Shown here: positions 31,314 through 39,931 of the stretch, in pieces
Layout: each line of letters starts with the position of its first letter
How positions within the stretch are numbered: position 1 is the stretch's first letter
Assembly (NCBI RefSeq): GCF_018760365.1
Contig: NZ_JAHIAB010000004.1
Span: 310,001-374,000 of the forward strand
DNA length: 64,000 bases
Direction: 5' to 3'
Source: Pseudooceanicola endophyticus
GTDB taxonomy: Bacteria; Pseudomonadota; Alphaproteobacteria; Rhodobacterales; Rhodobacteraceae
The notes under the pieces: model-generated
Databases searched by the model: none
What the model was told of the DNA's origin: nothing
Seen by the model: only the letters and a program-made list of their open reading frames with translations
Made by a program: the position numbers and the translations under genes

Positions 31314-32387
31314 ATGTCCGATTTCGAGGCGCAGATCCAGCAGAGCCGGCGCGAGGTGAGCGAGGCGCAGGGGCGCATCGCGCAGGTGACGGCGCGGATC
31401 GAGGCGGCGCGCGCCGATGCCGGGGCCTCGGAGGCGCTGGCGGGGATCGAGGACGCGACGCTGGCGGATGTGCGCGCCCATGCCGAGCAGATGAACGCCA
31501 ACATCGCCGAGCTGATCATGGGCCTCGATGACGTGACGGGGCAGTTCTCGCGCGAGTTCGACGCGATGCGCAACCGCACGGGGATGGAGAAGGTGATGGG
31601 CTTCTTCTCGCGCCAGAAGGCCGAGCAGATGCGCCAGGAGCGGCTGCGCCATGCCTCGATCGACGACAAGCTGCAGGATCTGATCGCCAAGTCGGACGAG
31701 ATCACCCGGCTGTTGCAGGACCAGCTGAGCGAGCTGGAGCACCAGAAGCAGAAGGTGGGCACGAACCTGTCGGAGACCCTGGCCGAGCGCGAGGCGGTGG
31801 TGAGCGAACTGGAGGCGCTGCGGGCCGCGATCCTGGCGATGGATCCGAAGATCATCGACCTGGAGAACCGCATCGGCGTTTGCCAGGACGCCGCCGAACG
31901 CACCCGGCTGGAAAGCGATCTGGCCGGGGTGAATGCGGAATACAACGCCAAGGTGCAGGACGAGCAGGTGAAGATTGCCCGCTCGCAGACGCTGGAGCGC
32001 TACGTGGAAAAGGGCAAGACCTGGGTGGATAGCCTGCAGAACCAGGCGGCGACCCAGATGGTGCTGATCAACAAGCTTCAGACCGACACCAAGCAGCGGG
32101 TGGTGCTGTATGACGCGCTGACGAAATCGCTGAAGACCGCGCAGCAGCAGGAGGTCGCGCACCGGATCAACGAGATCGGCACCGAGACCGACCGCGAGGC
32201 GCAGAAGGCGATGGCGCAGATCGGCGCGGCCACCAATGCCCGGATGGCCGACATGCTGGAGGCGCACGAGGGCCACATGGTCTTTGCCCGAGAGGTGCTG
32301 GAGGCCAAGGCGCGGGCGGACGAGCGCTTTGCCCGCCGTTTCCGCGCCATCGTCGAGAAGCATGACAGCAATCTTTATGGCGGCTGA
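31314..32387 (+). CDS. Long coiled-coil protein, first gene of an ATPase cluster
   Basis: A 357-residue soluble protein, nearly all alpha-helical with heptad-like spacing from residue 1 to 260 (for example LLQDQLSELEHQKQKVGTNL) and a short hydrophobic break at GMEKVMGFFSRQ near residue 97. No signal peptide or transmembrane helix. The C-terminal part (VVLYDALTKSLKTAQQQEVA) vaguely recalls TelA-like proteins, but I would not assign it. ACGAGGAGAG precedes the ATG. It opens a co-directional cluster with an AAA+ ATPase and two membrane proteins, and is a candidate filament, scaffold or ATPase substrate. Confidence 0.75.
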   Translation: MSDFEAQIQQSRREVSEAQGRIAQVTARIEAARADAGASEALAGIEDATLADVRAHAEQMNANIAELIMGLDDVTGQFSREFDAMRNRTGMEKVMGFFSRQKAEQMRQERLRHASIDDKLQDLIAKSDEITRLLQDQLSELEHQKQKVGTNLSETLAEREAVVSELEALRAAILAMDPKIIDLENRIGVCQDAAERTRLESDLAGVNAEYNAKVQDEQVKIARSQTLERYVEKGKTWVDSLQNQAATQMVLINKLQTDTKQRVVLYDALTKSLKTAQQQEVAHRINEIGTETDREAQKAMAQIGAATNARMADMLEAHEGHMVFAREVLEAKARADERFARRFRAIVEKHDSNLYGG

Positions 32388-32452
32388 GGGGATGGCAGCG
32401 CCGCTCGCCCCTGCGGGGCATCGCCCCGCCCGCCATCCCGCAAGGTGTCTTG

Positions 32453-33574
32453 ATGACTGAGGGGCTGGCGTCGGATCACGTGGTGCTGGAGGACGGCACG
32501 CTGTCGCGGCGCTACCTGGCGCAGATGCGGGCGATTTGCGCCCATCTGCCCCGGGTGCTGGGCGTGATGGAGGCCGAGGGGGCGCTTTCGGCGCGTGAAA
32601 GCGCGGCGGTGGCCGGGCATCTGGCGGCCCTGGGCTTCACCTTCCGGGCGCTGGAGATGAAATACATGATGGTCGGGCGCGCGGGGCTGAAGGGCACCGG
32701 CGCGCTGACCATCGACGATCACGAGAGCGGCTTTCCCACCGCCCGCGAGGTGATGGTGCTGGCCAATGACGCCGCCCAGGCCACGGCGCGGCTGGCCGAG
32801 ATGCCTTCGGAAGCGGCGCTGAAGCGGCAGATGCTGGACGAGATCATCGGCGATCTGCGCACCCCGGTGCGGCTGCAATATGCGCTGTCGCAGCGGCTTT
32901 ATCTGGAGGAGCTGGCGAAGGGCCGGCTGTTCTGGCCGCATGTGGAGGCGGAGGCCGAGTGGCTGGGCGATGTGGCACCGGGGCGGCGGCGCTACCTGCT
33001 GCACTGGTCGAGCTGGGACAGCCAGGTGAACCTGCCGCTGATCTGGCTGATGGAGCTGGAGGATACCGGCGCCACCGGCCTGCCCGCCGACGGCGCCCGC
33101 TGGGCCGAGCTGCGCGGCTATCTTTCGGCGCAGAGCCTCTCGGGGCTGAAGCTGCTGACCATCGCGCGCGGGCTGGATGCCGATTTCTCCGACCTGCATC
33201 CGAAGCGGCTGCGGCGGCTGCATGTGGGGCCGATGCATTCGCATCTGTTCACCCGCCAGTCCGGGCCGATCGCCGATGTGCTGGCGGCTGCGGGGGGCGC
33301 GGAGGGCGAGGACTGGGCGCTGGCCTGGACCTCGGAGCTGCTGGAGAGCGAACGCGTGGTGCAGGAGCGCACGGGCTGGTTCGGCCAGGTGGAGCGCGAG
33401 GTCTTCGCGCTGGATCCCGTGCAGGGAAGTGAGCGCGGGGTGAGTGCCCGCAGCCGGGCGCTGGTGCTGCCCGCGCGGCCCTATCAGGTGCTGGTGGAAC
33501 AGGCGCCGGAGGGTTTCCGGAGGCTGCGGAAATATGTCGTCGGCGATGGCGGCCGGGTGCTGAGCCAGCGCTGA
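32453..33574 (+). CDS. Unrecognised protein upstream of the AAA+ ATPase
   Basis: A 373-residue soluble protein; ATG 32453 is preferred over a TTG one codon earlier. Helical N-terminal half (YLAQMRAICAHLPRVLGVME), then a mixed part with Trp-rich LLHWSSWDSQVNLPLIWLME. The last 90 residues are of mixed strand/helix character. I recognise no domain or catalytic motif. It lies 65 bases after the coiled-coil gene and 38 bases before the ATPase gene, so it is probably in the same operon and could be an adaptor for the ATPase. Confidence 0.7.
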   Translation: MTEGLASDHVVLEDGTLSRRYLAQMRAICAHLPRVLGVMEAEGALSARESAAVAGHLAALGFTFRALEMKYMMVGRAGLKGTGALTIDDHESGFPTAREVMVLANDAAQATARLAEMPSEAALKRQMLDEIIGDLRTPVRLQYALSQRLYLEELAKGRLFWPHVEAEAEWLGDVAPGRRRYLLHWSSWDSQVNLPLIWLMELEDTGATGLPADGARWAELRGYLSAQSLSGLKLLTIARGLDADFSDLHPKRLRRLHVGPMHSHLFTRQSGPIADVLAAAGGAEGEDWALAWTSELLESERVVQERTGWFGQVEREVFALDPVQGSERGVSARSRALVLPARPYQVLVEQAPEGFRRLRKYVVGDGGRVLSQR

Positions 33575-33612
33575 GGCCGCGCGACCGGTGCGCAAGAGAG
33601 GGAAGGCGAGAG

Positions 33613-35526
33613 ATGTCGGATCTGGATGTGATGGCGCTGCCCGAGGCGGAGATCCGGGCCTGCTACCCGGCGGCCGAGGCGCTGCTGACGGGGTTCGATC
33701 ACGCGCCGCGGCTGACCAGGCCGCGGGAGGGGCCCGCCACCGGCGCGCGCGCTCTGCCCGGGCATCGCGCCTTCCGTTCGACCACGCCGGGGCTGACGGC
33801 GACGCGCCCGGCACGGGGCGCCTCGGTGCATCTGCTGGAGCGGATCCGGGCGGGGGAGGCGGATGCGCTGATCTCTCCGGCGCAGGCGGGTCTGGCACGG
33901 GCGCTGCGCCGCGCGCTGGCGGTGGCCCTGGCGCTGGGCGAGGTCTTTGCCGCCGGATCGGGGCTCGCGGAGTTGAAGCGGACCAACCGTGAAGGCCGGG
34001 TGCCGGGGGCGCGGCAGGCCGAATTCGCGCGGCTGCTGGAGGCCGAGGCGCTGGTGGTGCTGCATGTCTTCGCCAATGCCACCGCCTTCCTGCTGGCGCC
34101 GCAGCTGGAGGGCGCCGTTGCCGAGGGGCCGGAGCCCGAAGAGATCCTGACCGAGAATGCACCGCTGGCCCTGCAGGGCACCCTGTGGGAGCTGGACACC
34201 GTGCTGGAGGCGGCGGGCGCGGCGCAGGTCGCCGCCGTCGCGGGCCATGCCGAGCGGCTGATGGCGGCGGTGGCGCTGCGGATCGGCACGGCGCCGGTGG
34301 CGGGCTTTGCCGGGCGGGCCTGGCGGATCGGCGACGACGATCTGGTGATCCGGGGCTTCGCGCCGGCGGTGCGGGCGCGCTCCACCCGGGTGGAGATGGA
34401 GTTTGCCGCCCCGCGCGAGGTGGTCGGCAATGCCATCGCCAAGCATCAGGCGATGAAGCTGGCGCGGATGATGATGGCCTATGACCCGCTGACCCGGATG
34501 AACCCCTTTGCCGAGATGGGCGGCTTTGCCTTCACCTTCCTCGGGGACGGGCGACCGGGCACCGGCAAGACCACTCTGATCCGGATGATGGCCGGTCTTC
34601 TGAACGACTATTGCGCGGTCGCGGGCTATGCCTTCTGCTACCGCAACCTCTCGGTCGGGGCGCTGGACAGCTACCAGGGCAAGTCCGGGCAGAATGCCCG
34701 CGATTTCATCGCGGCGGTGAGCGATCCCGCCGGCATCGGCTTCGGCACGATCGACGATGTGGACCAGGTGGCGGGGCGGCGCGGGGACCGGCAGGCCTCG
34801 GCGGGGCAGCAGGAGATCACGGCGGTGCTGATGGAGGCCTTCGCCGGGGCGCAGACCGTGGTGCGCGGGAATTGCAGCTTCGGGCTGTTCTCGAACTTTC
34901 CGGAGCGGGTCGATGATGCGCTGCGCCAGCGCGCCGGGGCGCGCTTTGCGATCGACGGGCCGCAGAGCCGCGAGGATTACATCGACCTGCTGGCGCTGCT
35001 GATGGGGGAGGGGCACGACATCCCCCTGGGGCAGCACGATTTCCTGGCGGCGCAGGAGATCCGCCGCGCGGTGGCGCACAGCTATGCCGGCCATGACCGC
35101 CCTGCCGAGCCCGCCCTGGCGGCGGTTCTGGCCGAGGTTGAGGGGCGGCTGGGGCCGCTGGATACGCTGGCCAAGCTTGGCAGTTACCTGAAGGCGATCC
35201 AGGAGGCCGATCCGCGCTTTACCGGGCGGGCGGTGAAGAACATCACCGATGCGGTGAAGGCGCGGTCTCTGGATGTCGAGCTGCCGGAGGAATGGATGCA
35301 GGACCCGGGCCTGTTCCTGCACCGCGACTACGCGACGAAACGCGCCATGATCGGGGAGTTGCGCAAACCCGTCACAGCCCGGATGCTGATGCAGGAGATC
35401 AACCGCTACGGCGACAGCGAGCTGCGCTATGCCGGGGCGGCGGAGGAGGCGGCGGTGACGGACAGGGTGCGCGAGATGGAACGGGCCGAGGCGGCGCAGC
35501 GGCGCTTCCGGGCAGGGCGCGGATGA
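33613..35526 (+). CDS. AAA+ ATPase with a long unassigned N-terminal region
   Basis: A 637-residue protein. Residues 1-300 are helical and unassigned. The AAA+ module begins with Walker A GDGRPGTGKTT (311-321). The Walker B position is GFGTIDDVDQVAGRRGD (near 375-391), with Asp-Asp in place of the usual Asp-Glu. Sensor 1 and the arginine-finger region read FSNFPERVDDALRQRAG (near 427-443), close to the TN..lD..llRpgR pattern of FtsH/Cdc48-type AAA proteins. A helical lid and a C-terminal extension complete it. GGAAGGCGAGAG precedes the ATG. The product is probably a hexameric remodelling ATPase; its target is unknown, and neighbours include coiled-coil and membrane proteins. Confidence 0.8.
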   Translation: MSDLDVMALPEAEIRACYPAAEALLTGFDHAPRLTRPREGPATGARALPGHRAFRSTTPGLTATRPARGASVHLLERIRAGEADALISPAQAGLARALRRALAVALALGEVFAAGSGLAELKRTNREGRVPGARQAEFARLLEAEALVVLHVFANATAFLLAPQLEGAVAEGPEPEEILTENAPLALQGTLWELDTVLEAAGAAQVAAVAGHAERLMAAVALRIGTAPVAGFAGRAWRIGDDDLVIRGFAPAVRARSTRVEMEFAAPREVVGNAIAKHQAMKLARMMMAYDPLTRMNPFAEMGGFAFTFLGDGRPGTGKTTLIRMMAGLLNDYCAVAGYAFCYRNLSVGALDSYQGKSGQNARDFIAAVSDPAGIGFGTIDDVDQVAGRRGDRQASAGQQEITAVLMEAFAGAQTVVRGNCSFGLFSNFPERVDDALRQRAGARFAIDGPQSREDYIDLLALLMGEGHDIPLGQHDFLAAQEIRRAVAHSYAGHDRPAEPALAAVLAEVEGRLGPLDTLAKLGSYLKAIQEADPRFTGRAVKNITDAVKARSLDVELPEEWMQDPGLFLHRDYATKRAMIGELRKPVTARMLMQEINRYGDSELRYAGAAEEAAVTDRVREMERAEAAQRRFRAGRG

Positions 35527-35659
35527 GCGCGCGTCGGGTGTTCGGGAACGGGGGGTGCGGGAATGGGGGGAGCGCCCTCCGCGCCCCTTGGGGCCCGTCG
35601 GGCGCTGCCCGGGCCCTGCGGTCCCGGGCGGGCCCCCGGGCCGGCGGAGGGGCGCGGCC
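35527..35659. other. Extremely GC-rich linker inside the ATPase cluster
   Basis: The 133 bases between the ATPase and the next gene contain several overlapping GC palindromes, for example GGGCGCTGCCCGGGCCC near 35598 and CCCGGGCGGGCCCCCGGG near 35623. It resembles the GC hairpins of the intergenic repeat families but lacks their AATATCC core. Strong RNA structure is expected just before the next ATG (35660), so it could act as a pause, processing or translation-control site. Confidence 0.5.
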
Positions 35660-37072
35660 ATGATGGATCTGCTTCTGGACAGGGGCCTGATCTACGGCAA
35701 CCTGTTCCGCGTCGACACCGAGGCCCTGGCCGAGCGCTATGCCCGCGCCCTGCGCCATCTGACCGGGCGGGAGACCGCGCTGCGGGAGTTCCACATCGAT
35801 CTGTCGGGCTATTCGCCGGAGGTGGGGGCCGAGCTGGGCGATCCGGCCTATCTGAACCCCCGGGGCGTCAACCGGCAGTTCATCCTGCTGTCGGTGCGCC
35901 AGCAGAGCGCGCCGCTGCTGGAGGCGCGCTTTTCGACCTCGCGCAGCATCCTGCGCCGCTTCATCGCCGCCAACGAGGAACAGCTTTTCGCGCTGACCGC
36001 GCGCGATGCCGTGGCCGGAGAGCTGGTGAACTCGGTCTTCGAGGTCGAGACCCCGGCGCGGCTGCTGGAGATCCGCCATGTCACGGTGGAGGCCGACACC
36101 ACCCGGGGCGTGCTGCGCGCCGCCGAGGCCCTGGGGCGCCTGTCGGACCGTTTCCTGAGGGAGCCGGGCGCCTGGCACGACCAGCGCCTGATCGACGAGA
36201 TGATCGCCACCGCCCGTCAGAGTGGCGATGTCAGCCGCAGCCCGGTCCGCCTGACCTCGGAACGGTTCGAGCAGAAGACTTTCTGGACCGCGCATTTCGG
36301 CGGCGCCTACCTGTTCCGCGATGTCCGGGAGCCGGCGATCCTGGCGGCGGAACCCGAACGCTTTGCCGGCTTGCCGCTGCCGGTCATCGCGCTGTCGGAT
36401 CGTGCCGGGGTGGCGCGCTTCCTGAACGCCAACGGGCTGAGCGAGCCGGTGCTGCATGCCCGCGGCATCGACGGGGCGGCGGTGCTGCGCCAGAAGATGG
36501 ATTTCATCACCGTCGACACCGCCCAGCATTCCGGCCTGGACCTGGAAGGCGCCACGCGCCGCGATCTGCGCCGCATCGCCCGCCTGCATGCCGATGTGCT
36601 GCCGCCCGAATACCACGCCCTGCGCCGCATGGTCGAGGGCGCGACCGGCCTGCCGGACCCCGGCGCGCCGGGCTATTTCTACGCGCTGCGCGCCGCCTCA
36701 GGCCCCGACGAGGACCTGGTGAACATGCTGCTGGCCGAGATGACGCCGAAGGACGTGCGCCAGCTGTTCATCTGCCACAAGACGCTGTTCTACCGGCTCT
36801 GGCAGGGCTGGTCGGCGCCCAAGCAGGCCTATGTGGCGGATTTCCTGGCCCGCGAATATGCCGTCGACACCGCCGGCGCGCGCGCCGCGCTGTTCGGCCA
36901 CGAACCCGCCATGGCCGAGCCGCAGCACCCGCAGAGCGGCCCCTGGGGGCCGTCCAAGGGCCTGAGCGCGCGGGACGAGGTGCGCGGCCTGCACCGCAAG
37001 CCCGCAGCCGGTGACGACCTGGTGGCCCGGGTCGGCCCCTGGGGCGTGCTGCACCGGAAGGACCGCCGATGA
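35660..37072 (+). CDS. Conserved protein of unknown function (possibly DUF6638)
   Basis: A 470-residue soluble protein; start chosen at ATG 35660 (MMDLLLDRGLIYGNLF) after GGAGGGGCGCGG, although the frame is open further up. The N-terminal 250 residues have mixed alpha/beta character (LREFHIDLSGYSPEVGAELG, then NRQFILLSVRQQSAPLLEAR). The C-terminal part ends in short basic motifs. My recollection is that proteins of this kind in Rhodobacteraceae are labelled DUF6638, but I cannot confirm it. The stop overlaps the next start (ATGA), tying it to the membrane protein downstream. The function is unknown. Confidence 0.75.
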   Translation: MMDLLLDRGLIYGNLFRVDTEALAERYARALRHLTGRETALREFHIDLSGYSPEVGAELGDPAYLNPRGVNRQFILLSVRQQSAPLLEARFSTSRSILRRFIAANEEQLFALTARDAVAGELVNSVFEVETPARLLEIRHVTVEADTTRGVLRAAEALGRLSDRFLREPGAWHDQRLIDEMIATARQSGDVSRSPVRLTSERFEQKTFWTAHFGGAYLFRDVREPAILAAEPERFAGLPLPVIALSDRAGVARFLNANGLSEPVLHARGIDGAAVLRQKMDFITVDTAQHSGLDLEGATRRDLRRIARLHADVLPPEYHALRRMVEGATGLPDPGAPGYFYALRAASGPDEDLVNMLLAEMTPKDVRQLFICHKTLFYRLWQGWSAPKQAYVADFLAREYAVDTAGARAALFGHEPAMAEPQHPQSGPWGPSKGLSARDEVRGLHRKPAAGDDLVARVGPWGVLHRKDRR

Positions 37073-37350
37073 TCGCCCTGCTGCGCTTTCTGATCCCCGC
37101 CGCGCTGGTGCTGAGCGTGATCTACGCCGCCGTCTCGCTCTGGTCGCGGCACAAGCGGCGCCGGAAGCTGACCCGCGACTGGACCGACGAACACGGCGAC
37201 ATCCCCGAGGACGATGCCGAGGAGGAGGACTTTGTCGAAAAGGGCCTCGATGCCTATGACGGCAGCTTCCGGCGCCGCCTGATCCTGCTCATCTACATCG
37301 TTCCGGTGGTCATCGTCGCCATCATCATATACGCCCAGAACTACAGGTAA
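37069..37350 (+). CDS. Small two-helix membrane protein with an acidic middle
   Basis: A 93-residue protein: helix 1 (residues 2-24), a basic patch SRHKRRRKL, an acidic segment DIPEDDAEEEDFVEKG, and helix 2 (LILLIYIVPVVIVAIIIY, about 71-88). Both ends probably lie on the same side, with the charged middle in the cytoplasm by the positive-inside rule. Coupled by overlap to the unknown gene before it and 12 bases ahead of the DUF1523 gene. It looks like a membrane anchor or docking partner for the soluble proteins of the cluster; this is inference. Confidence 0.75.
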   Translation: MIALLRFLIPAALVLSVIYAAVSLWSRHKRRRKLTRDWTDEHGDIPEDDAEEEDFVEKGLDAYDGSFRRRLILLIYIVPVVIVAIIIYAQNYR

Positions 37351-37362
37351 GGAGAGACCCCA

Positions 37363-37980
37363 ATGCGTTACGTGAAATGGGCCGTCCGGATCATCGTCGT
37401 CCTCGTGCTGGCGGCGTTCTTCGATTACACGCTGCCCCAGCATGACGTGGTGCGGGTCACCGACACGTTCGAGAAGCGGATCGACTTCGGCGACAACTCG
37501 ATCTTCTGGTCGAATTCCGGCGCCGGCAATGCCTCCAACGCCACCAACCGCGACGTCTTCTTCATCCAGACCATCCGTGCCAACGGCAAGCCGCTGGTGT
37601 TCCGCAACGAGGACACCGGCTGGGGCTGGCCGCCCTATTTCAAGTTCAACACCAACAACCTCCAGACCGAGGCCGCGGATCTGAAATCGACCTCGGACAA
37701 CCCGAAATGGGTCCGCGTCACCCATTACGGCTGGCGCAACGAATTCCTGTCGATCTTCCCCAACGCGGTGCGGGTCAAGCAGGTCTCGGGGCCCGATGAC
37801 GTGGGGCTGCCCTGGTTCAACACCATCGTCATCGTGCTGTTCATCGCGCTGGCCTGGGCGATCCGGGTGCGCGTGCTGCGCTTCTGGGACCGCCGCATCG
37901 ACCCGATGATGGAGGATGTGGGCGACGGTCTCTATGCCGGGCGCTCGAAGCTGCGCCGGATCTTCTCGCGCGGGAAATAA
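37363..37980 (+). CDS. DUF1523 family membrane protein
   Basis: A 205-residue protein with an N-terminal helix (VRIIVVLVLAAFFDYTL), a periplasmic domain of about 120 residues rich in Trp, Asn and aromatic residues (FIQTIRANGKPLVFRNEDTG, then DTGWGWPPYFKFNTNNLQ) and a second helix (IVIVLFIALAWAIRVRVL), followed by a basic cytoplasmic tail. The pattern fits DUF1523, a family of unknown function that I know from Rhodobacteraceae. AAGGAGAG precedes the ATG. It closes the six-gene cluster that contains the AAA+ ATPase. Confidence 0.82.
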   Translation: MRYVKWAVRIIVVLVLAAFFDYTLPQHDVVRVTDTFEKRIDFGDNSIFWSNSGAGNASNATNRDVFFIQTIRANGKPLVFRNEDTGWGWPPYFKFNTNNLQTEAADLKSTSDNPKWVRVTHYGWRNEFLSIFPNAVRVKQVSGPDDVGLPWFNTIVIVLFIALAWAIRVRVLRFWDRRIDPMMEDVGDGLYAGRSKLRRIFSRGK

Positions 37981-38057: not shown

Positions 38058-39050
38058 ATGCCTCTCAGCACGATGTTTTCCCCGGAGGCCGATGCGCGCC
38101 CCGATGCGACGGAGGCCTCGGCCCCGTCCCGTCCCCCCGTGGTCCTTACCCCGGTGGCGATCCTTGCCAACCGCAAGTCCGGCACCAATGCCCGCGACGC
38201 CGAGGCGATCGACCGCGCCATGGCGGTCTTCGGAGACGATGCCCGGCTGCATCACTGGGACACCGAGCAGGACCTGGGCGCCCTGGCCGACAAGGCCATC
38301 GCCGGGGGCGCCCGCACCATCATCGCCGCCGGTGGCGACGGCACCGCCATGGCGGTGGCCCAGGCGGTTCTGGGAAAGGACGTGGCCTTCGGCGTGCTGC
38401 CGCTTGGCACCTTCAACTACTTCGCCCGCGGCCTCGGCCTGCCCGAGGAAGCCTCGGAAGCCGCGCGCGCCCTGCTGGCGGGCACCCCGCACGAGATCCG
38501 CATCGGCACGGTGGATGGTCAGGTCTTCCTCAACAACGCCAGCCTCGGGATCTATCCGCGCATCCTCAAGGAGCGCGAGGATGTCTATGCCCGCTGGGGC
38601 CGCCGCCGCCTGATGGCGCACTGGTCGGTGATCCGGACCTTCTGGCGCTTCCAGCGCCCGATGCGGATGCGGCTGACGGCGGACGGAGCGGTACAGGACG
38701 TGCGCACGCCGCTGCTCTTCGTGGCGCGCTCGGCCTACCAACTTGAGATCTTCGGTCTGGAGGGGGCCGAGGCGATCCACGACGATGCCTTCGCGGTGCT
38801 GGTGGGGCGCGGCGAAACCCGGGCCGAGCTGTTCCGCCTGGCCTGGCGGCTGATCACCCGGCGCATGCAGCCGGGGCGCGATTACGATCTGCTGGCGGCG
38901 AAGCACCTGGTGGTCGAGACCGCGAAACCCCGGATGCTGGTGGCCTTCGACGGCGAGAAGCGCCCGGACCGCAGCCCCTTCACCTTCCACATGGAAGACC
39001 GCCCGCTGCGCCTTCTGCTGCCGGGGCCCCGCCAGGAGGCCCCCGCATGA
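38058..39050 (+). CDS. Diacylglycerol kinase catalytic-domain (lipid kinase) protein
   Basis: A 330-residue DAGK_cat protein. The NAD-kinase-like fold opens with VAILANRKSGTNARDAEAID, and the phosphate-binding motif is TIIAAGGDGTAMAVAQAVL. LPLGTFNYFARGLGLP is the next conserved block, and VDGQVFLNNASLGIYP leads into the second domain. Such enzymes phosphorylate diacylglycerol, undecaprenol-type or sphingoid lipids. AGGAGGG precedes the ATG. Its stop overlaps the ATG of the metallophosphoesterase, so kinase and putative phosphatase are made together. 77 bases separate it from the DUF1523 gene. Confidence 0.87.
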   Translation: MPLSTMFSPEADARPDATEASAPSRPPVVLTPVAILANRKSGTNARDAEAIDRAMAVFGDDARLHHWDTEQDLGALADKAIAGGARTIIAAGGDGTAMAVAQAVLGKDVAFGVLPLGTFNYFARGLGLPEEASEAARALLAGTPHEIRIGTVDGQVFLNNASLGIYPRILKEREDVYARWGRRRLMAHWSVIRTFWRFQRPMRMRLTADGAVQDVRTPLLFVARSAYQLEIFGLEGAEAIHDDAFAVLVGRGETRAELFRLAWRLITRRMQPGRDYDLLAAKHLVVETAKPRMLVAFDGEKRPDRSPFTFHMEDRPLRLLLPGPRQEAPA

Positions 39051-39931
39051 GCCGCCTGCTGCATCTTTCCGACCTGCATTTCGGACGCAGCGAACCGGCG
39101 CTGGAGGCGCCGCTGCTGGCGGCCATCTCAAGGATCCGGCCCGATCTGGTGGTGGTTTCGGGCGATTTCACCCAGCGGGCCCGGGTCGCGCAGTTCCGCC
39201 AGGCGCGCGCCTTCCTGGAGCGGGTCGAGGCGCCGCTGCTCTGCGTGCCGGGCAATCACGACACGCCGCTCGACAATGTGCTGCTGCGCTTTCTGCGCCC
39301 CTTCGGACGCTATCGCCGCTGGATCGACCGGGATCTGGAGCCGACCTACCGGGATGCGGCGCTTTCGGTGGTCGGGGTGAACACGGTCAATCCCTTCGCC
39401 TGGCAGCAGGGTCGCTTCCGCCGTCGCGCGCTGGAGCGGGTCTGTACCGCCTTCGAGGATGCCGGCGACCGGCTGCGGGTTGCGGTGCTGCACCATCCCC
39501 TGGAACACGGGCCCGAGGTGGAAAAACGCCCGATGCGCGGCGCCGCCCGCGCCCTGCGGGGCCTGTCGGACTGCGGGGCCGACGTGGTGCTCTCGGGCCA
39601 CCTGCACCGCGCCGGCACCGCCCCGTTCCGCGCCGCCCCGGGGCTCCTTTTCGTGCAGGCGGGCACCGGTCTCTCGACCCGGCGCCGGGGGGAAACCAAC
39701 ACCTTCAACATGCTCGATCTCTCGGGCGAGCGGCTGCGCGTCACCGAGTGGGCGGCGGAATGGGACCGCGCCGGCGGCGTGGCCTTCGCGCCGGGCCGCA
39801 GCAACTCCTTCTGCCGGGACCGGGGCGCCTGGATCCGCAGCGGCCCGGGGGCGGGCCTTTTCGACGCCGGTGCCGGGGGCGCGGCCCCGGTCTCCCGCGG
39901 AGCCTCCCCCGGGGTGTTCCCGGCCCGGTGA
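39047..39931 (+). CDS. Calcineurin-like metallophosphoesterase
   Basis: A 294-residue dinuclear-metal phosphoesterase. The conserved blocks are LHLSDLHFG (residues 4-12), VVVSGDFTQRA, VPGNHDTPLDN, and the C-terminal pair AVLHHPLEHG and LSGHLHRAGT. The family includes cyclic-nucleotide phosphodiesterases and lipid phosphatases such as LpxH-like enzymes; the substrate is not determined. It is translationally coupled to the lipid kinase. The last ~18 residues (GGAAPVSRGASPGVFPAR) are encoded by a copy of intergenic repeat family A, so the natural C-terminus has probably been replaced by the repeat. Confidence 0.87.
   Translation: MSRLLHLSDLHFGRSEPALEAPLLAAISRIRPDLVVVSGDFTQRARVAQFRQARAFLERVEAPLLCVPGNHDTPLDNVLLRFLRPFGRYRRWIDRDLEPTYRDAALSVVGVNTVNPFAWQQGRFRRRALERVCTAFEDAGDRLRVAVLHHPLEHGPEVEKRPMRGAARALRGLSDCGADVVLSGHLHRAGTAPFRAAPGLLFVQAGTGLSTRRRGETNTFNMLDLSGERLRVTEWAAEWDRAGGVAFAPGRSNSFCRDRGAWIRSGPGAGLFDAGAGGAAPVSRGASPGVFPAR

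Follow-up and report, generated by a model that had tools for sequence, protein, structure and literature searches.

A co-inherited AAA+ gene core with an exchangeable gene slot in Pseudooceanicola endophyticus and relatives: a possible undescribed conflict system

A run of six co-directional genes around an AAA+ ATPase raises the question of what such a run encodes, and which of its members belong together. The genes lie at positions 31314 to 37980 of a 64,000-nucleotide stretch of Pseudooceanicola endophyticus DNA (contig NZ_JAHIAB010000004.1, positions 310,001 to 374,000; the whole stretch is called the window below), and a preliminary description had proposed all six as a possible undescribed system. 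Comparison across relatives places the boundary elsewhere. Judged by occurrence, gene order and protein identity, the core is A (coiled coil), B, C (AAA+ ATPase) and D (DUF6638), which are co-inherited, kept in order and co-diverging. A slot between C and D holds different genes in different relatives. Lengths below are in amino acids (aa) or base pairs (bp), and ORF stands for open reading frame.

A: 31314..32387, + strand, long coiled-coil protein of 357 aa, core (ORF; same 37 of 100 genomes as C and D)
B: 32450..33574, + strand, 373/374 aa, no known family, core (ORF; between A and C in 37 of 37 regions)
C: 33613..35526, + strand, 637-aa AAA+ ATPase with invariant Asp-Asp Walker B, core (PF00004, 1.9e-11)
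C-D slot: 35527..35659, + strand, 133 bp, empty here; an exchangeable gene in many relatives
D: 35660..37072, + strand, 470 aa, DUF6638, core (PF20343, 2.8e-183)
E: 37069..37350, + strand, 93-aa two-helix membrane protein, linked neighbour, not core
F: 37363..37980, + strand, 205-aa DUF1523 membrane protein, linked neighbour, not core (PF07509, 3e-67)

The list of ORFs confirms all six genes on one strand with the sizes first given, and the two very short or overlapping junctions are also as described (a 4-base overlap of D and E, and 12 bases between E and F). The start of B may be a TTG, giving 374 aa, or an ATG one codon on, giving 373 aa.

A panel of 100 relatives, the window's own genome included, was searched for C, A and D. 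Each is present in 37 genomes, and the three sets of 37 are identical. These phyletic profiles cover A, C and D; the presence of B was read from the regions around C or D matches. In the 37 regions fetched, A, B, C, D and F keep one order and strand throughout, and E is present in 35. The regions were selected for a C or DUF6638 match, and represent 33 of the 37 C-positive genomes together with G100, G213, G311 and G270 from the class-wide DUF6638 search; not included are the window's own genome and three fragmented ones (G003, G043 and G049). The gene arrangement exceeds chance.

The preliminary description had looked to gene neighbourhoods in related genomes, and there the core genes are indeed conserved together: in a second set, consisting of the best 80 of at least 571 candidates (named loci) and 12 further regions, all of A–D occur together in 84 of 92 loci. 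Five of the other eight are cut by contig ends (L083, L086, L100, L114 and L135), and three lie inside long contigs (L071, L108 and L089). Only L089 has C without nearby A, B and D inside a long contig, and it may be misassembled, since it comes from a metagenome bin. Where D is missing beside C, DUF6638 is found elsewhere in the genome (6 of 6). In the L071 genome D-E-F lies ~470 kb away on a contig of equal length, and in the L108 genome D has no E or F match beside it. In the locus pairs L071/L189, L108/L190 and L089/L191, C and D(-E-F) are distant or on separate contigs and both are kept, the split falling at the slot.

The core proteins also diverge together. Across 54 loci that also hold a flanking dehydrogenase gene (aldh), the identity of C correlates with that of A at 0.87, of B at 0.87 and of D at 0.86, and with that of the dehydrogenase at 0.74; these values come from 1431 pairs, which are not independent of one another.

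The C-D gap exceeds 350 bp in 76 of 123 loci, and 250 bp in 93 of 123 with D starts refined. Gaps above 350 bp are found in 6 of 128 loci between B and C, in 17 of 126 between A and B, and in none of 107 at D-E or E-F. The longest ORF lies on the operon strand in 83 of the 93 wide slots. A 4-bp overlap joins its start to the C stop in 43 of them and its end to the D start in 49, and in 44 it lies close at both start and end. The usual content is a single co-directional gene. Seven loci were checked outside Rhodobacteraceae and Rhizobiaceae, and in each the slot is closed (6–18 bp); three of the seven resemble one another (two titled Halomonas and one genome of another class). The Vibrio gap is 48 bp. 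The slot was not visible from the window, since its 133 bp are empty in this genome.

Where the core is nearly identical, the slot content often differs entirely. Among 150 locus pairs with C 93–98.5% identical, median identities are 0.969 for A, 0.957 for B and 0.901 for D; for E and F they are 0.71 and 0.68 (144 of these pairs). In the first 60 of the 150 pairs, the DNA is alike at the end of C and at the start of D (identity 0.93 at each) but not across the slot (0.44). With C in the 95–100% identity bin and both slots filled, the slot genes have no detectable similarity in 86 of 101 pairs. Because locus pairs share members, a count of loci is the plainer measure. In 17 loci (14 titled Ruegeria) C has an identity of 93% or more to that of L063; all 17 have a slot ORF, and these ORFs fall into ten groups without detectable similarity to one another. 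On these comparisons no other part of the operon is replaced as fast as the slot gene. When several slots (L026, L030, L043 and others) are translated out of frame, a GC-rich stretch of similar sequence is seen in them, which may be a repeat element linked to the exchange of slot genes.

Slot proteins are commonly membrane proteins. By a simple hydropathy count, the slot ORF has at least two membrane segments in 59 of 123 loci and is soluble in 22 more; 13 loci with a gap above 250 bp were not classed, the AbiJ-like L022 among these. A set of 90 slot proteins (89 picked by script and L022 by hand, some of which may be spurious ORFs) matches ten Pfam families. DUF559 (6), a restriction-endonuclease model (5) and AbiJ_NTD4 (2) recur, and Mrr_cat, Mrr_N, NA-iREase1, PIN_10, DUF2971, BrkB and RRG7 are matched once each, several of them on one protein. 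The NCBIfam matches are DUF559 (6), antiphage_ProA (3), Hhe (3) and STM4504 (2); none of ten slot proteins tested matches antiphage_ProA. A control set of 90 flanking proteins, chosen by codon bias, matches 155 Pfam families, and the slot types are not among the 25 of these that are listed.

Two families of slot membrane proteins were traced further. A two-segment family is present in 4 of the 100 relatives, and by its coordinates lies in the slot all four times. A three-segment family is present in 37 of 198 genomes of the window's family. Seven of its members were placed: four are in the slot (G024, G027, G039 and G053), and three lie directly upstream of E-F or F in genomes that lack A–D (G023, G041 and G046). 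A small three-segment membrane gene of slot type lies directly upstream of E in L196 and L197, from genomes without A–D. In Sinorhizobium meliloti, the slot (L204:10410-13640) carries a DUF559-type gene and an ISRm16 transposase, and a DUF2333 protein follows D.

The ATPase C matches Pfam AAA (PF00004) with 44.9 bits against a cut-off of 21.2 (E-value 1.9e-11), and so passes the curated threshold. Its Walker A motif, GDGRPGTGKTT, spans residues 311–321, and its Walker B motif, GTIDDVD, carries Asp-Asp at 381–382 where Asp-Glu is classical, both as first described. All 129 aligned C sequences have the Asp-Asp pair, as does the Vibrio copy, and the pair is therefore a trait of the family. It makes C a variant whose AAA membership rests on the domain score, and the Walker B aspartate may still serve as the base. 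Also invariant in all 129 sequences are K319 (the Walker A lysine), N428 (the sensor-1 asparagine), and R438, R440 and R444, arginines of the second region of homology and candidates for the arginine finger. The nearest solved sequences are the i-AAA protease, Rpt4, katanin and spastin, with Vps4 more weakly matched, and PADLOC gives a weak TRIP13 match (19.3 bits). With the classical AAA ATPases (i-AAA/FtsH, proteasomal Rpt, katanin, spastin and Vps4) C shares the AAA domain, Walker A, the sensor-1 asparagine and the arginines. It differs from them in having Asp-Asp for Asp-Glu, in ~270 N-terminal residues without a Pfam match, in lacking a protease domain, and in its operon partners A, B and D.

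A, B and E have nothing above the curated cut-off in Pfam, B has no match in Pfam, NCBIfam or PADLOC, and searches of the core proteins in NCBIfam and PADLOC give weak matches only. Domain searches find no enzymatic motif in A, B or D, in agreement with the earlier statement that the soluble members have none besides the ATPase. The structure model of D has a mean predicted local distance difference test (pLDDT) of 85. The possibility that B and D are paralogues was rejected (hhalign probability 0.1%).

A is modelled as an all-helical coiled coil at low confidence (mean pLDDT 58); its PDB matches are generic coiled coils, and its PADLOC match, to LmuB, is weak (<9 bits). Pfam, PDB sequences and hhalign with TelA tie A to no known family, no direct profile comparison with PspA or ESCRT-III having been made. 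The C-terminal half of A suggested a link to TelA (toxic anion resistance), which A resembles in length and helical character, but the searches do not support this. There is no PF05816 match, and hhalign gives ~0.1% against the TelA proteins of relatives; several of those TelA rows are truncated or mis-started, so that this is a lack of support and not a disproof. TelA (PF05816) is absent from the window's own genome and present in 33 of 60 relatives. In general outline, an AAA ATPase encoded next to a long helical coiled-coil protein may work like Vps4/ESCRT-III or PspF/PspA, the analogy first drawn, which these results neither strengthen nor refute. Here, however, A shows no homology to known families in the searches made, and B, D and an exchangeable slot gene are additional.

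The core extends well beyond the family of the window. C was found in 26 of 398 genomes across the phylum. Of these, 14 are from the family of the window, 11 come from two other families in its class, and one belongs to a different class. DUF6638 was found in 6 of 289 class-wide genomes, 5 of them above the cut-off. G270 represents one further family with C, which 1 of 14 genomes of that family carries; for the family with large genomes the nearest named proteins are those of Mesorhizobium and Rhizobiaceae. The C loci include two titled Halomonas and others titled Labrys and Roseibium. C also occurs on large replicons of Sinorhizobium, Shinella, Rhizobium and Vibrio, and the 10 plasmid-set records with C are large replicons of Rhizobiaceae or Vibrio. 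The order A-B-C-D is kept in Rhizobiaceae, Halomonas and Vibrio megaplasmids, and also in Sinorhizobium records; in annotated Vibrio records it is followed by mfd. Between window and Vibrio, identities are 36% for A, 27% for B, 36% for C and 28% for D. On a large Vibrio replicon (L203:4534-5734), A is preceded by two genes on the same strand, 90 and 279 aa long and of unknown function. In viral contigs there are at least two weak matches to C, in the AAA part only.

We favour, at somewhat less than even confidence, the reading that A–D is an undescribed AAA+ conflict machine with exchangeable partners or effectors encoded in the slot. A, B, C and D would encode one ATP-driven machine. C would form a ring and use ATP to remodel or pull a client, with the coiled coil A as its scaffold or substrate and B and D as adaptors. 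In many Rhodobacteraceae and Rhizobiaceae, the machine would act on the slot partner or be armed by it; most such partners are small membrane proteins, and some are nucleases or AbiJ/HEPN-like proteins. In loci with an empty slot, such as the window, the core may run alone or the effector may have been lost. Because the slot partner is exchanged faster than the rest of the operon, selection probably comes from antagonists (phage, mobile elements or rivals). The stronger form of this proposal is a new kind of AAA+-driven conflict system whose core fires interchangeable effectors, many of them embedded in the membrane, which cassette exchange supplies at one slot within the operon; it is more doubtful and is put forward only tentatively.

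Several observations weigh against a conflict machine. The weak TRIP13 match of C aside, the core proteins fall outside the known defence families, and no homologue of C was found in phages. About a quarter of loci have no wide slot, which is closed in the seven outgroup loci and 48 bp in Vibrio. One slot family also occurs beside E-F or F in the three genomes without A–D, and the core is strongly conserved and set among metabolic genes, unlike many defence genes. In PADLOC, moreover, the 90 flanking controls matched more models (23) than the 90 slot proteins (17). This output gives members per model and not an overall total of members; with the controls matching more models, the argument from defence enrichment was abandoned.

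Three other explanations must be set beside this reading. That A–F is one obligate six-gene complex, with E and F as its membrane site, is very improbable. E-F does lie directly 3' of D in most Rhodobacteraceae loci and in loci titled Halomonas, DUF1523 is present in 36 of the 37 core genomes, and the adjacency of D and F in several families indicates some linkage. DUF1523, identified in F as first described, is nevertheless present in 52 of the 100 relatives, 16 of which lack A, C and D, and E adjoins F in 8 of 10 regions read among these 16. In three genomes of the window's genus (L193, L194 and L195), E-F lies near the same dehydrogenase and peptidase genes with A–D missing. No E or F was found by tblastn in 8 of 8 Rhizobiaceae loci, where D is followed by a membrane protein (named DUF2333 in Sinorhizobium, with a similar-looking ORF in 8 of 8 loci), and mfd follows D in Vibrio. 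Over the same 54 loci and 1431 non-independent pairs, identity correlations are 0.58 for C-E, 0.47 for C-F, 0.50 for D-F and 0.70 for F-aldh, so that F tracks the core less closely than it does the chromosome. Both E and F appear to be separable neighbours, not core. Of the earlier proposal, then, an undescribed system stands in so far as the genes are kept together across two classes of Proteobacteria; the six-gene boundary was wrong.

The other two explanations concern the slot itself. A–D could be a housekeeping or stress machine of the inner membrane, with the AAA+ protein remodelling a coiled-coil polymer and the nearby membrane genes (slot, E, F and rhizobial DUF2333) as fast-evolving partners. 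This is a possibility of lower probability than the conflict machine. The high conservation of A–C fits it, as do the membrane genes that recur beside D (E/F, and DUF2333 with its similar ORFs in Rhizobiaceae) and the 59 of 123 loci with a slot ORF of at least two membrane segments. Against it, unrelated slot genes, soluble nuclease types included, swap between operons with C 93–98% identical; because unrelated genes replace one another, fast drift alone is not sufficient, and E and F do not co-diverge with C (0.58 and 0.47). Less likely again is a permissive landing site, where unrelated, partly selfish or defensive genes settle for co-expression with no bond to A–D. The empty slot of the window, the closed slots of the outgroups, the general families Mrr, DUF559 and AbiJ, the insertion sequence in one Sinorhizobium slot and the A-B gaps that are wide too (17 of 126 above 350 bp) are all consistent with such a site. 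It accounts less well for a content of mostly one co-directional gene fitted by 4-bp overlaps, for D-E and E-F gaps that never exceed 350 bp in 107 loci, and for a slot family confined to the slot among 100 relatives.

Two further observations concern neighbouring genes. Upstream of A, 9 loci (e.g. L051) have a divergently oriented gene whose product (ADDVT...) is probably secreted; it also occurs beside E-F in genomes without A–D (L193:6645-7277 and L194:8733-9530). In the window, overlapping lipid-kinase-like and metallophosphoesterase genes (38058-39931) lie 3' of F; both occur near the cluster in 4 of 37 regions.

As an exchangeable conflict machine, A–D would resemble the modular anti-phage systems with swappable effectors, CBASS, Thoeris and retrons, where a constant core is accompanied by a variable nuclease, HEPN/Abi or small transmembrane gene at a fixed place, as here. 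It differs from them in that its core falls outside known defence families beyond the weak TRIP13 match, in that the slot may be empty, and in having no known defence phenotype. DUF1523 and DUF2333 are named in the literature searched, as far as its accessible parts go; within the same parts DUF6638 is not named and a description of the A–D genes was not found. A and B are in no named family. A, C and D share one phyletic profile with B always between, and the set is spread over two bacterial classes. Near-identical cores with ten unrelated groups of partners in one Ruegeria-type clade amount to a natural experiment, and this variety makes the function testable by exchanging just one gene. Should the slot genes be effectors, they would offer a new source of defence proteins or small membrane toxins, mostly unrecognised by present libraries.

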